NCBI GenBank assembly: GCA_947479645.1
Contig: CANKAJ010000016.1
Span: forward strand, 1-53,061
Source of the DNA: Betaproteobacteria bacterium
GTDB lineage: Bacteria > Pseudomonadota > Gammaproteobacteria > Burkholderiales > SG8-39
Length of the DNA stretch: 53,061 nt
Reading direction: 5' to 3'
The position numbers and the translations under genes are program-made. Shown one piece after another: positions 9,276-18,908 of the stretch. Below the pieces are notes generated by a model. The model saw nothing but the letters and a program-made list of their open reading frames with translations. It was not told the DNA's origin and searched no databases. How positions within the stretch are numbered: position 1 is the stretch's first letter; each line of letters starts with the position of its first letter.

Positions 9276-10349
9276 ATGATCCATAGCAAAAATGCTGCGC
9301 GCTGCGTGACCGAGGCTGCGGCAGGCAACTGGCGCCTGAACCGGCTCAGGTGTGCCCTGCCTGAAGGCTTGCCAACACGCGGCACCTGCTTCCCGATAAT
9401 CATCACGGCCGCACTGATGCTGGCGGTGCCGTTCATGCCGGCACATGCACAAACTTACCCGGTCAAGCCGGTGCGTATCATCTCGCCCTATCCTCCCGGC
9501 GGCGGCAACGATCTGATCTCACGCTCCATTGCGCAAAAGCTGACTGGCCGATTGGGTCAACAGGTGTTTGTTGAGAACAAGCCGGGCGCCAACACCGTGA
9601 TCGGTACCGAAGCACTGGCCAAGTCCGCGCCCGATGGCTATTCCATCATCCTCGTGCCCAGCAGCCACGCCATCAATCAAAGTCTCTATGCCAAGCTGCC
9701 CTACGATGCCGTGCGTGATTTCTCGCCGATTACGCTGGCCGGCTCCAGCCCCCTGCTGCTGGCGGTCAATGCTGCCTCGCCGCTCAAAACTGTCCGCGAC
9801 CTGATATACGCGGCGCAGGCCAAGCCCGATGAACTGACCTACAGCACTGCAGGCAGCGGCTCGTCAGGGCATCTGGCAGGCGTGCTGCTGGCACTCACCA
9901 CCGGCATCAAGCTGCAACATGTGCCTTACAAGGGAACGGCGCCAGCCCTGACGGCGGTGCTGACCAACGAAGTTTCCATGAGCTTTGCGCCGCCGCCGCC
10001 GTTCCTGGCGCAGATCCGCGCGGGCAAAATGCGCGCGCTCGGCATGAGCAGTGCGCAGCGCTCTCCCGCCGCACCGGATATTCCCACCATTGCGGAGTCG
10101 GGCGTTCCCGATTTCGCGGCCAGCGTCTGGTATGGATTTCTGGCCCCGGCCAATACACCCCGCGACATCGTGCAGCGACTGAACGCCGCCATCAGCGCGG
10201 TCATCAAGGAGGCCGATGTGCACGACCTGCTGTCGGCCCAGGGCATCGATCCCTACAGCAGCACACCAGAGGAATTCGCGCGCTTTATTGCGACCGAGCT
10301 TGAAAAATGGGCCAAAGTCGTCAAGGCCTCTGGCGCAAGAGTCGAGTGA
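9276..10349 (+). CDS. Bug/TctC-family periplasmic substrate-binding protein (copy 4)
   Basis: A 357-residue receptor. The region before the mature start (AQTYPVKPVRIISPYPPGGG) is unusually long, with about 37 residues ahead of the hydrophobic core FPIIITAALMLAVPF. AAGGA at a good distance supports ATG 9276. The ligand loop is GGGNDLISR and the pocket segment is VENKPGANTVIG. It is very similar along its length to the next gene (copy 5), which indicates a tandem duplication. It may share an operon with copy 5 and the pseudo-hydrolase at 11464. Confidence 0.92.
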   Translation: MIHSKNAARCVTEAAAGNWRLNRLRCALPEGLPTRGTCFPIIITAALMLAVPFMPAHAQTYPVKPVRIISPYPPGGGNDLISRSIAQKLTGRLGQQVFVENKPGANTVIGTEALAKSAPDGYSIILVPSSHAINQSLYAKLPYDAVRDFSPITLAGSSPLLLAVNAASPLKTVRDLIYAAQAKPDELTYSTAGSGSSGHLAGVLLALTTGIKLQHVPYKGTAPALTAVLTNEVSMSFAPPPPFLAQIRAGKMRALGMSSAQRSPAAPDIPTIAESGVPDFAASVWYGFLAPANTPRDIVQRLNAAISAVIKEADVHDLLSAQGIDPYSSTPEEFARFIATELEKWAKVVKASGARVE

Positions 10350-10381
10350 AAATTACGGATCAAAACATCGGAGAGATTTCA

Positions 10382-11467
10382 GTGAAGCAACCTATCAATA
10401 CACATAGCGAAGCAGATCGTGAATTACGTCGCGAATTACAACGCGAATTACAACGATTTGTCGCACGCGTGCCGCGCCGAGGTCAGGGCACAACAGCGCG
10501 TCTCAAGGCGGCCTGCGCCGCCGTGGCCGCGACGCTCGTCACATTAACGGTTACAAGCGCTAATGCACAAACCTATCCGACCAAACCCGTGCGCATCATC
10601 TCGCCCTACGCACCGGGCGGCGGCAATGACGTGATTTGCCGCGCCGTGGCGGTGCGTCTTGGCCCGGTGATGGGGCAATCGGCGGTCGTCGAGAACAAGC
10701 CCGGCGCCAACACCATCATCGGTACTGACTACGTGGCCAAGTCTGCGCCTGACGGCTACACCATCATCCTGTTGCCCAGCGCGCATACCATCAATCCGCA
10801 TCTGTACGAAAAGCTGCCCTACGATTCGCTGCGCGACTTTACCCCCATCACGCTGGTGGGCGCCGCACCGCTCCTGCTGGCGGCCAATTCGTCCTCGTCG
10901 ATCAAGTCGATCCGTGACCTGATCCAGGCCGCCAAAGGCAAACCCAACGAGATCACGTACAGCACCTCGGGCAGCGGCTCTTCAGGCCACCTGGCCGGCG
11001 CACTGCTGGGCTCGATCGTGGGAATCCAACTGCAGCACATCCCGTACAAAGGTGCGGCACCAGCGGCAACCGCGCTGCTGGCCAATGAGGTCCTGCTCAG
11101 TTTCTCGCCGCCCTCCACGTTGATCCCGCATGTGCGCAGCGGCAAGCTGCACGCGCTGGGCATGAGCGGTGACAAGCGCTCGGCCATCGCCCCTGACATC
11201 CCCACCATCGCCGAATCCGGGATACCCAATTACGAGGCCGGCCTGTGGTACGGCTTTCTGGGACCGGCCAAACTGCCGCGCGACATCCTGCAGCGTCTTA
11301 ACGCCAGCATCGCCACCGTCATCGCGGACAAGAGCACGCAGGAAGTGCTGGCCAAACTGGGGATTGATCCCTTTACCAGCACACCCGAGGCATTCACCAA
11401 GTTGATCGCCGACGACATCCAGAAATGGGGCCCGATCGTCAGGGCATCCGGGATCAAGGCCGAATGA
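10382..11467 (+). CDS. Bug/TctC-family periplasmic substrate-binding protein (copy 5)
   Basis: A 361-residue paralogue of copy 4, with the shared segments TYPTKPVRIISPYAPGGG, ENKPGANTIIG and GSGSSGHLAG. The start is taken as GTG 10382 because GGAGAG sits six bases upstream; the open frame also contains ATG 10307 and GTG 10346, both overlapping the previous gene. The N-terminal extension contains a repeated ELxREL pattern (ELRRELQRELQRF) encoded by a 12-base tandem repeat (about 10420-10457). It precedes the signal core AACAAVAATLVTLTVTSANA. The stop overlaps the next start (ATGA at 11464). Confidence 0.92.
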   Translation: MKQPINTHSEADRELRRELQRELQRFVARVPRRGQGTTARLKAACAAVAATLVTLTVTSANAQTYPTKPVRIISPYAPGGGNDVICRAVAVRLGPVMGQSAVVENKPGANTIIGTDYVAKSAPDGYTIILLPSAHTINPHLYEKLPYDSLRDFTPITLVGAAPLLLAANSSSSIKSIRDLIQAAKGKPNEITYSTSGSGSSGHLAGALLGSIVGIQLQHIPYKGAAPAATALLANEVLLSFSPPSTLIPHVRSGKLHALGMSGDKRSAIAPDIPTIAESGIPNYEAGLWYGFLGPAKLPRDILQRLNASIATVIADKSTQEVLAKLGIDPFTSTPEAFTKLIADDIQKWGPIVRASGIKAE

Positions 11468-12304: not shown

Positions 12305-12478
12305 AAAAATCGATTTCGATATTAATTTTCGTCCCTGGATAAGATTCCCCGGTCTGCCGCCATGCTGACATGCAGGACTGCCGGCGGCGACCCGCGCCAA
12401 AGAGCAAATTGACAGTATGGCAAGCGGGCATACAATGCCCAGGCCCAACCCATGACCAATCCGTCGACAGGACCGACC

Positions 12479-13909
12479 ATGCTGCCCGCAACCGGTTTCG
12501 TGATTTTCGCCAAGCGTGATTGCCCGACCTGCACCCTGATCGAGCCGGTGCTGCGCAAACTCTGCGCAGCCGACCCGGCCACCTGTTTCATCTCGCAGGA
12601 CGATCCGCAATTTCCCGAAGGCGTGAGCGCAGTTCTCGATGACCGTGAGCTTGAGCAGTCCTTCCGCCACAACATCGAATTCGTCCCCACGCTGATCCGT
12701 CTGGAAAACGGCCGCGAAGTCGATCGCACCTACGGCTGGGATGTCAGGGAATGGCGCCGCATCACCGGCCTCGCCGATCTGGGCAATGGCCTGCCGGAAT
12801 TTCAGCCGGGCTGCGGTTCGCTCAGTGTGGCCCCCGGCGCCGCCGAGAACCTGCAGGTGCGTTACGGCGAGACCGGTTTGAAGTCGCGCAAGATCGAGTT
12901 GGGCGAGTGGGACGACCCCATCGAGGCCTGCTTCGAGCGCGGCTGGAGCGATGGCCTGCCAGTGGTGCCGCCCACCGACGTGCGCATTGTGCGCATGCTG
13001 GCGGGAACAAAACGCAAGCCCGACGAGATCATCGGCCGCATCCCGCCCTTCCTGCCCGAATGCACCGTGGAGAAGGTCGCCATCAGCGCCGTGATGGCCG
13101 GCTGCAAGCCCGAGTACATGCCGCTGGTGCTCGCCGTCGTGGAAACGGCGCTGGTGCCTCTCTTCTCGTTGCACGGCATCCTCGCCACCACCTCCTTCGG
13201 TGGACCCATCGTCATCGTCAACGGCCCGATCGCCAAGAAGCTCGGCATGAACTGGGGCTTCAACGTGCTGGGCCAGGGCAACCGCGCCAACAACACCATC
13301 GGCCGCGCGCTGCAGCTCTTGGTGCGCAATTTCGGTGGCGGCCGCCCCGGCGAGGTCGACCGCGCGGCGCTGGGCAGCCCCGGCAAGATCACCTTCTGCT
13401 TCGCCGAGGACGAGACCGACCCGAGCTGGGAGCCCTATCACGTGTCACTGGGCTTCCGGCGCGACCAATCCACGGTGACGCTGTTCCAGGGCCATGGCGT
13501 CGAAACCTTTAACGACGACAAATCGCGCACCCCAGAGCAGTTGGCGCATTCCTTCGGTCTGGGCCTGCGCACCATCGGCCATCCGCGGTTGCAGAAGGCG
13601 CAGGCCGTGATCGTGCTTTCACCCGAGCACTACGCCATCTTTCGCGATGGAGGCTGGGGCCGGAAACAGATCACCGAGGCCCTGCACAAGTACTCCACGC
13701 GCCCGGGCAGGGACATCGTGGCAGGCACCGACGGCATACCGCTGGGCATAGACCCCAGCCGCGCCGATGAAATGGTGCCCAAGTTCGCCCCCGACGGGCT
13801 GCTGATCGTCCGTGCCGGCGGTCCGGCGGGACTGTTCAGCGGTGTGCTGCCCGGCTGGGGCTCCAAGCCGGCCGAAGTGGGGCCGGTCACCCGCGAAGTA
13901 CATGAATGA
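12479..13909 (+). CDS. Thioredoxin-domain fusion protein, partner of the UGSC selenoprotein
   Basis: A 476-residue protein with two parts. Residues 1 to about 100 are a thioredoxin-like domain with redox motif CPTC (Cys15, Cys18) after the strand GFVIFAK, and the cis-Pro loop FVPTLIRLENG. From about 130 to the end is a large conserved domain of unknown function with GWSDGLPVVPP, EKVAISAVMAGCKPEYMP, FGGPIVIVNGP and GNRANNTIGRAL. From memory, this domain is commonly encoded next to UGSC-family proteins, as here. ATG 12479 has AGGA six bases upstream and is preferred over ATG 12452, which has no ribosome site. A thiol-exchange role with the selenoprotein is inferred from the pairing. Substrate is unknown. 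Confidence 0.8.
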   Translation: MLPATGFVIFAKRDCPTCTLIEPVLRKLCAADPATCFISQDDPQFPEGVSAVLDDRELEQSFRHNIEFVPTLIRLENGREVDRTYGWDVREWRRITGLADLGNGLPEFQPGCGSLSVAPGAAENLQVRYGETGLKSRKIELGEWDDPIEACFERGWSDGLPVVPPTDVRIVRMLAGTKRKPDEIIGRIPPFLPECTVEKVAISAVMAGCKPEYMPLVLAVVETALVPLFSLHGILATTSFGGPIVIVNGPIAKKLGMNWGFNVLGQGNRANNTIGRALQLLVRNFGGGRPGEVDRAALGSPGKITFCFAEDETDPSWEPYHVSLGFRRDQSTVTLFQGHGVETFNDDKSRTPEQLAHSFGLGLRTIGHPRLQKAQAVIVLSPEHYAIFRDGGWGRKQITEALHKYSTRPGRDIVAGTDGIPLGIDPSRADEMVPKFAPDGLLIVRAGGPAGLFSGVLPGWGSKPAEVGPVTREVHE

Positions 13910-13968
13910 AAATGCGCGAATCCAATTACTTGAATGAACATGCCTGACCACCCAAAGGAGGTACGCGA

Positions 13969-14502
13969 ATGATGAAACTGTCCGGGGAAACATTACGTGA
14001 TCCCACCGCGGAAACAACCTCGGTGAAGCGGGCGCGGACTAGCCCGCCCAAATCGCTGGAGGGCCTCTGCGTGGGCCTGTTCGGCATCGGCAAGACGCGC
14101 ACGCCGGAATTCCTTGACCAGGTCGAAAAGCGTCTCGCCGAGCGCGGTCTGATCACCAAACGCTTTGCCAAGCCCACCAACGCCAAGACCTGTCCGCCCG
14201 AGATCATGGAACAGGTGGTACGGGAATGCGACGTCGTATTGGTCGGCTTATCGGATTGAGGCTCATGCACGTCGTGCAGTTTGCACGACCTCATCAAGAT
14301 GGACAGCAGCGGCGTTCCCGGTGTCACAGTGGTTTCCAGGGGCTTCGTGGACGCCATGGAAATGCAGTCCGGTGTGCTGGGGTTTGACCCCGCCGTGATC
14401 TACGTGCCGCACCCGATCCAGAACCTGTCAGCCGACGAACTGAACAAGATTGCCGACGATGTCATCGAACCGGCGCTGGCGCTGCTGACATCGAAGGAAT
14501 GA
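13969..14502 (+). CDS. UGSC-family selenoprotein (in-frame TGA = Sec97)
   Basis: The gene is one frame of 178 codons interrupted only by TGA at 14257-14259, and both halves are in the same frame. Translated through, the codon lies in VGLSD-U-GSCTSCSLHDLI, which is the defining U-G-S-C motif of the UGSC (seleno)protein family; Cys homologues carry CGSC. Sec97, Cys100 and Cys103 form UxxCxxC, a pattern also known from the Sec subunit of glycine reductase. A SECIS-like stem-loop follows the TGA. AAAGGAGGT six bases before ATG 13969 is the strongest ribosome site I see in the window. The upstream half has GLFGIGKTRTPEFLDQ and AKTCPPEI; the downstream half has VTVVSRGFVDAM. The product is probably a cytosolic redox protein working with the thioredoxin fusion 59 bases upstream. 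The final stop is also TGA, without such a hairpin. Confidence 0.88.
14257..14292 (+). promoter_or_regulatory. Candidate bacterial SECIS element
   Basis: Starting at the Sec TGA, GTCGTGC (14271-14277) and GCACGAC (14283-14289) form a perfect 7-base stem, extendable to 8, around the loop AGTTT. The loop begins 18 bases after the TGA and has a G at its second position. Both agree with the known bacterial SECIS rules as I recall them (16-37 base distance; G in the first two loop bases). GAG (14258-14260) and CTC (14290-14292) can close the base. SelB is expected to bind it. Confidence 0.78.
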
Positions 14503-17933: not shown

Positions 17934-18908
17934 CTACTGATCCGTCTGCACGAAGTTGATCGCCTTCACCACCTTGCCCCAGCGGGCGATCTCGGCGCGC
18001 AAGGCGGCACCGAATTCCTCGGGTGTGCTGATCACCGGCTCCACGCCGGACTTGGCGAAACGTTCCCTGACCTCCGGGCTGGCCAGCGCCCTGGCCATGG
18101 CCTGATTGAGGCGCGCAATCACCGCTGCCGGCGTCCTCGCCGGCGCGACGATGCCGTTGCTGGCCGTCACTTCGAAGCCGGCGTAGATGGAATCCATGGT
18201 GGGCAGGTCCGGCAGCGCGGTGGCGCGTTTCAGCGACGCCACGGCCAGCGGCCTGATTTTCCCGGAACTCGCCAGTGGCAGTATCGACGCCATGGACACG
18301 AATAGCATGGACAGATGATTGCCCATGATATCGGTGAGCGCCTGGGCAGCGCCCTTGTAGGGCACATGCACCATGTCGATTCCGGCCATCAGCTTGAACA
18401 TTTCACCGCCCAGGTGCAGCGACCCACCCAACCCGACCGAGCCAAAGGTGAGCTTGCCCGGATTGGCCTTGGCGTAGCTGACCAGCTCCTGAACACTGCG
18501 CAAACCCAGCTTGGGATCGGTCGCCAGCACGATGGTGCTGGCCGACACCGTGCCCACCGGCGCCAGATCCTTCAGGGGATCGAAAGGCATTCTGGGATTT
18601 GAACTCGGCATGATCGCGATGGCCGCCGTGGTAATGAGCAGGTTGTAACCATCCGGGGCGGACTTGGCGACATGGTCAGAGCCGATCATGCTGCCGCCAC
18701 CGCCGATGTTCTCGATGATGATGGGCTGGCCGATCACCTCCCCCAGCTTCTCTGCAAACGGACGCACGGTCAGATCGATCGGGCCTCCCGGTGGCGAATA
18801 GGGGATGACCAGCCGGATCGGCTTGAACGGGTAAGTCTGCGCCATCACCAGTTGCGACAGGAGTACCGAAACCAGGGCCATGCCCATTGCCCACAGCCTG
18901 ATCTGCAT
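17934..18908 (-). CDS. Bug/TctC-family periplasmic substrate-binding protein (copy 6)
   Basis: A 324-residue receptor with the signal peptide MALVSVLLSQLVMAQ and mature start TYPFKPIRLVIPYSPPGG. The ligand loop is GGPIDLTVR. The next segment reads ENIGGGGSMIG where most relatives have ENRPGA, a glycine-rich variant that may change the pocket. GAGGAGG stands just before ATG 18908. An AT-rich 143-base gap before it could hold its own promoter. It is last in a reverse run of acyl-CoA genes. Confidence 0.92.
   Translation of the reverse strand: MQIRLWAMGMALVSVLLSQLVMAQTYPFKPIRLVIPYSPPGGPIDLTVRPFAEKLGEVIGQPIIIENIGGGGSMIGSDHVAKSAPDGYNLLITTAAIAIMPSSNPRMPFDPLKDLAPVGTVSASTIVLATDPKLGLRSVQELVSYAKANPGKLTFGSVGLGGSLHLGGEMFKLMAGIDMVHVPYKGAAQALTDIMGNHLSMLFVSMASILPLASSGKIRPLAVASLKRATALPDLPTMDSIYAGFEVTASNGIVAPARTPAAVIARLNQAMARALASPEVRERFAKSGVEPVISTPEEFGAALRAEIARWGKVVKAINFVQTDQ

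Follow-up and report, generated by a model that had tools for sequence, protein, structure and literature searches.

The window, a 53,061-nucleotide stretch of DNA from a Betaproteobacteria bacterium of the Burkholderiales, carries on its forward strand a predicted UGSC selenoprotein gene of 177 codons and a stop (13969..14502), recognised from its reading frame, its match to PF24696 and its homologues. Codon 97 is an in-frame TGA (14257..14259) predicted from the frame, homologues and relatives to encode selenocysteine (Sec). The preliminary description of this DNA had proposed that two short open frames are one gene, and reading the window from 13969 to 14502 bears this out: a single frame runs from the ATG at 13969 through the TGA, seven sense codons and the TTG at 14281 to the terminal TGA at 14500-14502. 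The ribosome binding site proposed there is also present, as AAAGGAGGT (13954..13962, plus strand), read from the sequence and ending 6 bases 5′ of the ATG. The encoded protein contains the motif UxxCxxC, as U97-G-S-C100-T-S-C103, and the codon for U97 opens a bacterial SECIS-type hairpin (14257..14289, plus strand). Upstream on the same strand, a gene of 485 codons (12452..13909), here termed the partner gene, ends 59 bases before the UGSC gene. Profile searches and fold divide its product into a thioredoxin-fold domain (residues 6-107, 12467..12772), with the motif C24-P-T-C27, and a partner domain of approximately 340 residues (approximately residues 150-485, 12899..13906); between them lies codon 121, a TGC encoding Cys in the motif PG-C-GS (12812..12814). 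The finding is larger than that first described, for it takes in the hairpin, the partner gene with its thioredoxin domain and an expansion of the family to 31 copies.

The assignment to the UGSC family, originally suggested from the U-G-S-C motif, is upheld by profile searches, for which C was written in place of U in both the Pfam and NCBIfam scans. The window UGSC protein matches the Pfam UGSC family PF24696 at nearly full length (residues 9-174) with 129.8 bits and an E-value of 1.5e-37, against a cut-off of 25 bits. Its score of 119.6 bits against NF041046 falls just short of the NCBI equivalog cut-off of 125, and thus the protein is placed in PF24696 and not in the NF041046 equivalog. 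By this Pfam score and by its U-G-S-C motif, it belongs to the same family as the UGSC proteins described from ocean metagenomes, in which, according to the accessible text, Sec forms outnumbered Cys forms 255 to 21 (PMC2398784). The predicted structure is a confident five-strand α/β domain in which Sec97 sits between a strand (residues 89-95) and a helix (residues 98-113). The structures that it matches best are flavodoxin-, receiver- or TIR-like, whereas a thioredoxin-like fold had been supposed for the family (PMC2398784, accessible text).

The identity of codon 97 is addressed by homologues that align across it at full length and hold either Cys or TGA there, as the proposal of Sec at this position required. 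Among 65 database homologues, 58 have Cys at this position, four end at D96, one has Ser and two are fragments (P0059 and P0060) with unrelated ends at position 97. The Ser-bearing homologue, P0054, reads S-G-A-C. The TGA itself is kept in the seven nearest betaproteobacterial contigs (L049-L055), which share 64-85% DNA identity with the window gene, as well as in an eighth relative, an Acidimicrobiaceae MAG that is only 34% identical. Against each of the seven, the majority of substitutions fall at third codon positions on either side of the TGA; for L049, substitutions at positions 1, 2 and 3 number 8, 5 and 25 before it and 11, 7 and 28 after it. This bias 3′ of the TGA indicates that selection acts on the downstream half at the protein level in the same frame, in agreement with the continuity of coding sequence claimed at the outset.

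The hairpin consists of an eight-pair stem (14271-14278 with 14282-14289) closed by the three-base loop GUU (14279-14281), and the loop begins with G-U in 51 of 52 TGA-bearing UGSC genes, 18 from this genome and 34 from relatives. Covariation was assessed over 39 distinct 33-base stretches against 500 shuffles. Pairing holds in 95.8% of cells compared with 85.2% in the shuffles, and the covariation score is 0.279 compared with 0.105, with none of the 500 shuffles as high. Six of the eight stem pairs have changed on both sides, and in a control with the pairing partners slid by one to three columns the covariation reached at most 0.076. The pair 21-27, which joins two third codon positions, is G-C in 20 sequences, C-G in 19 (the window among them) and broken in none. 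In the Cys homologue L106, the letters break two of the third-position hairpin pairs. Folding energy alone is unremarkable, with a z-score of -0.55 for the window, a mean of -1.23 over 31 genes and values below -1 in 18 of these, and by itself is weak evidence for the hairpin. The 18 hairpins of this genome were among the training sequences of a covariance model, R1, and hence their top ranks in the genome search arise by construction; outside the training set, the search matched six TPAV-type hairpins with E-values of 0.0015 to 0.0052, and among the 150 of 4096 candidates scored there was no match outside UGSC genes with E below 0.09. A divergent pair of UGSC fusions (L061:383-2068, with UGRC, and L076:2789-4480, with UGNC) places its hairpin differently, also with GUG in the loop.

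The genome also holds the machinery that the preliminary description expected, as selA (572.7 bits), selB (393.9), selD (422.6) and the tRNA-Sec gene selC (80.2) all score over their profile cut-offs, and ARAGORN reports a tRNA-Sec with anticodon tca. One UGSC fusion gene (C13:8387-10018) lies approximately 140 bases before selB (L074:8387-12050), and another (C54:2789-4480) approximately 1 kb from tRNA-Sec, itself next to selA (L076:2789-7168); the family and the Sec machinery are thus linked on the chromosome. Cys exchange, a covarying hairpin and the Sec machinery constitute three independent tests, each favouring Sec at codon 97 as judged from sequence, and we regard the TGA as almost certainly a selenocysteine codon. 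There is next to no likelihood that the TGA is a sequencing error, the refutation named beforehand, or that a nonsense mutation has recently struck a gene in decay; the 308 contigs form a draft assembly and the four homologues that stop at D96 resemble a truncated gene, but the identical TGA recurs in seven relatives and 30 paralogues, the third-position bias persists 3′ of it and the hairpin that follows covaries. Equally negligible is a genome-wide reassignment of TGA to another amino acid such as Trp, which would account for 31 genes being read through a TGA, but an ordinary TGA stop ends 20 of these same 31 genes, homologues carry Cys and not Trp, and tRNA-Sec and selA/B/D are present.

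These 31 genes come from a genome assembly of 5.74 Mb in 308 contigs, 94% complete and 1.8% contaminated. PF24696 is matched 34 times in it, 33 of these over the cut-off, and 31 of the matching genes contain exactly one TGA; the other three matches are two contig-end pieces (C260 and C186) and a sub-threshold match in an FAD protein. All 31 carry U-G-x-C, and they comprise 11 short genes and 20 long genes fused with the partner domain. Even the closest pair is only 74.5% identical in the UGSC domain, with a median of 26%, so that strain duplication does not account for the 31; the window copy shares no more than 34% identity with any of the other 30. The last Cys of the motif is less constant than the U-G-x-C core: Cys at position 103 is found in 54 of 66 aligned UGSC rows, query included, is replaced by W in the TSW-type paralogues and is absent from the TPAV type. 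At E 1e-5, UGSC matches occur in 24 of 61 related genomes, this one included. By rank, these are all six others of the genus (with 1 to 25 copies), 14 of 30 in the family and three of 24 in the order, one of which has 19, and a single TGA is present in all except five of the matches listed in the related genomes. When the class was sampled evenly, two of 274 other genomes had any UGSC match at E 1e-12.

The partner domain accompanies this expansion throughout. It was delineated by its own profile, as Pfam and NCBIfam scans of the 485-residue partner protein returned no family match at E 0.01, and from approximately residue 150 onward the protein resembles the long UGSC proteins in their C-terminal part, at 37-41% identity to the nearest of them. 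In this genome it adjoins every one of the 11 short UGSC genes on the same strand, downstream in six and upstream in five, and is found inside all 20 long genes, with C148 extending only 24 positions before its contig ends. In all eight related loci it lies upstream of UGSC on the same strand. The partner domain alignment has 28 invariant positions, and Cys218 and Cys316 are present in 112 of 113 rows. In one relative, a PhzF-like gene (L055:4986-5867) stands between the partner and UGSC genes, and in another MAG an in-frame TAA falls within the partner frame (L054:4559-5659). From these sequence associations, UGSC and partner very likely make up one enzyme.

The thioredoxin domain is restricted in its occurrence. 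In the window partner both the thioredoxin fold and the CxxC motif are found, the latter in all 50 aligned thioredoxin-partner rows, and no Pfam thioredoxin model is reported for the protein at E 0.01. Thioredoxin and partner domain share one frame in the window and in L049-L055. In the stretches searched, a thioredoxin profile found no match in the ten other stand-alone, UGSC-adjacent partner genes of the genome, nor in L056, and on this sequence evidence the domain belongs to the clade of the window gene. There it is probably the electron donor. Residue 121 is Cys in the window, L049, L050 and all 120 of the database homologues listed, and is an in-frame TGA between the two domains in all five of L051-L055 (L051:1763-1765, L052:506-508, L053:4582-4584, L054:4556-4558 and L055:3618-3620). 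With TGA in place of Cys121, the partner of these five is also a predicted selenoprotein. A seven-pair hairpin follows this TGA in all five, which are too alike for covariation, and four of its seven pairs are broken in the Cys form of the window. The possibility that the thioredoxin of L051-L055 is a separate gene was rejected, for in all five it shares the partner's frame, with one TGA as the only interruption between the two. A search of 98 genomes of the family at E 1e-110 or better yielded 15 thioredoxin-partner genes in 13 genomes, the present one included; none has an internal stop, and thus the Sec121 form is seen only in L051-L055. PG-C-G is present in 14 of the 15, with L153 outside the pattern, and the Sec UGSC motif occurs in all 15 loci, again with the window's own. 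The L050 record (CAMCYY010000065.1) is titled Bordetella parapertussis and has an isolate name like that of an environmental MAG; the UGSC region in it shows 78-89% likeness to that of this genome, and its species label is doubtful.

Among characterised systems, there is a likeness to glycine reductase protein B (GrdB: TIGR01917, PF07355) and D-proline reductase PrdB (TIGR04483), by a weak match to the C-terminal region of GrdB, which includes its Sec. Of the 66 members of alignment A1, which are not independent, 37 match TIGR01917 at E 0.01 or better, the best at 5.1e-5; others match sarcosine GrdF (24 members), TIGR01918 (six), GrdH (four) and PrdB (one). The window UGSC protein matches positions 331-420 of the 431 in TIGR01917 at E 4.8e-4, its 19.2 bits lying far below the cut-off of 602.2, and PF07355 was not reported for it at E 0.01. 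GrdB carries a UxxCxxC motif and uses thioredoxin as reductant (PMC13188914, accessible text), and both features are paralleled in the window gene pair. It differs in that UGSC is a single short domain that scores far below the curated cut-offs, and in that the partner matches no model. No pyruvoyl subunit was recognised, the partner, with its two near-invariant Cys residues, having no Pfam or NCBIfam match at E 0.01. The likeness is marginal but repeated, and suggests a thioredoxin-fed reductase. A further parallel, by description only, is FarB/FarE of Cloacibacillus porcorum, a proposed fluoroacetate reductase that pairs a Sec protein of the GrdB kind with a second subunit; its GrdB relative, FarB, is proposed in the accessible text to attack the C-F bond of fluoroacetate with its Sec, and the system serves a single small carboxylate and includes a transporter gene in its operon (PMC10838667). 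With thioredoxin itself, residues 6-107 of the partner share fold and CPTC, the difference being that here the domain forms one chain with the partner domain.

The neighbours of the 31 UGSC genes fit catabolism. Among 92 scanned of the 113 listed are six acyl-CoA dehydrogenases, four α/β hydrolases, three CoA-transferases and three enoyl-CoA hydratases. TctC-like receptors are common beside UGSC genes, but are common everywhere in the genome. At least 150 TctC solute-receptor genes are present (150 scored of 701 first-look candidates), three of them in the window (9276-10349, 10307-11467 and 17934-18908).

Taken as a whole, the best explanation, and one that we consider rather more probable than its competitors together, is that a Sec-containing UGSC protein and a thioredoxin-partner protein form one reductase. 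SelB and the hairpin would enable ribosomes to place Sec at codon 97, and UGSC and partner would assemble into one enzyme whose partner domain holds the substrate. Sec97 would attack this substrate, as is thought for the Sec of glycine reductase protein B, with release of the leaving group; the oxidised selenium would be taken over by Cys100 (and Cys103), and electrons would arrive from the CPTC thioredoxin domain, perhaps via Cys121. The 31 diverged copies would then be enzymes for different imported organic acids. The GrdB-like cleavage chemistry, drawn by analogy, is possible and is offered tentatively. The foremost alternative is that UGSC and partner are a thiol-disulfide or peroxide reductase of general redox or repair function and not a substrate-cleaving catabolic enzyme. 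A UxxC motif with a thioredoxin domain is typical of redox relays, and the family is filed among redox proteins in the accessible text of PMC2398784; however, 31 diverged copies with a partner domain apiece would scarcely be required for such a role, and neither the acyl-CoA dehydrogenases, CoA-transferases and TctC-like receptors nearby nor the GrdB-type matches favour it, so that we judge it unlikely. It is less probable still that UGSC works alone, with the partner domain serving as a regulator or as an aid to binding. In the 17 kb inspected around it, a stand-alone partner gene (C1:13333-14475, L067) lies approximately 5 kb from the nearest UGSC gene, itself already paired with a partner, and thus the partner domain can occur with no UGSC gene next to it; against this stand its co-occurrence in 31 of 31 genes and eight of eight loci, in both gene orders and as a single-chain fusion in 20 genes, and the 28 invariant positions.

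UGSC selenoproteins, including one fusion of UGSC with a domain named Unknown_1, have been known since 2008 (PMC2398784, accessible text); that domain is known here by name only and may or may not equal the partner domain. Compared with that description, the partner is constant here (31 of 31), can also be encoded separately on either side of UGSC, and occurs with a thioredoxin domain. The accessible portions of the literature on UGSC and on selenoproteins in connection with betaproteobacteria, Burkholderiales, Methylomirabilota, Rokubacteria and tripartite tricarboxylate systems (including PMC9312934, PMC12013277 and PMC1088965) mention neither a separate partner gene nor a thioredoxin link, and neither a second Sec site nor an expansion to tens of copies. 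A table in PMC5029168 gives UGSC counts of 26 and 33, read here as organisms and genes, compared with 31 Sec copies in this one genome.

UGSC proteins are among the commonest selenoproteins of water samples (PMC2398784, accessible text), and a 2026 review states, in its accessible part, that the functions of such families are largely uncharacterised (PMC13188914). That part also cites a Methylomirabilota MAG with 63 selenoprotein genes; the 31 copies of a single family approach whole record selenoproteomes (39, 46, 57 and 63 genes), and the host group is absent from the selenoprotein-richest groups that it names. Annotation loses these proteins by cutting them at the Sec codon, as had been guessed: for the fused paralogue on C85, each of the best 120 of 7529 database matches starts downstream of the Sec codon, the first of them at residue 104, and Cys forms predominate among the database proteins that match the short window gene. 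A partner that is constant, a thioredoxin domain and the existence of single-chain fusions make the UGSC system amenable to expression and assay. In the broadest reading, which we hold as tentative and a little short of evenly balanced, UGSC, partner and thioredoxin may represent a new class of selenium-dependent reductase, glycine-reductase-like but stripped-down, which in some lineages would carry Sec in both chains, which public annotation tends to cut at the Sec codon, and which one betaproteobacterial lineage would have multiplied into 31 substrate-specific versions for the degradation of organic acids.
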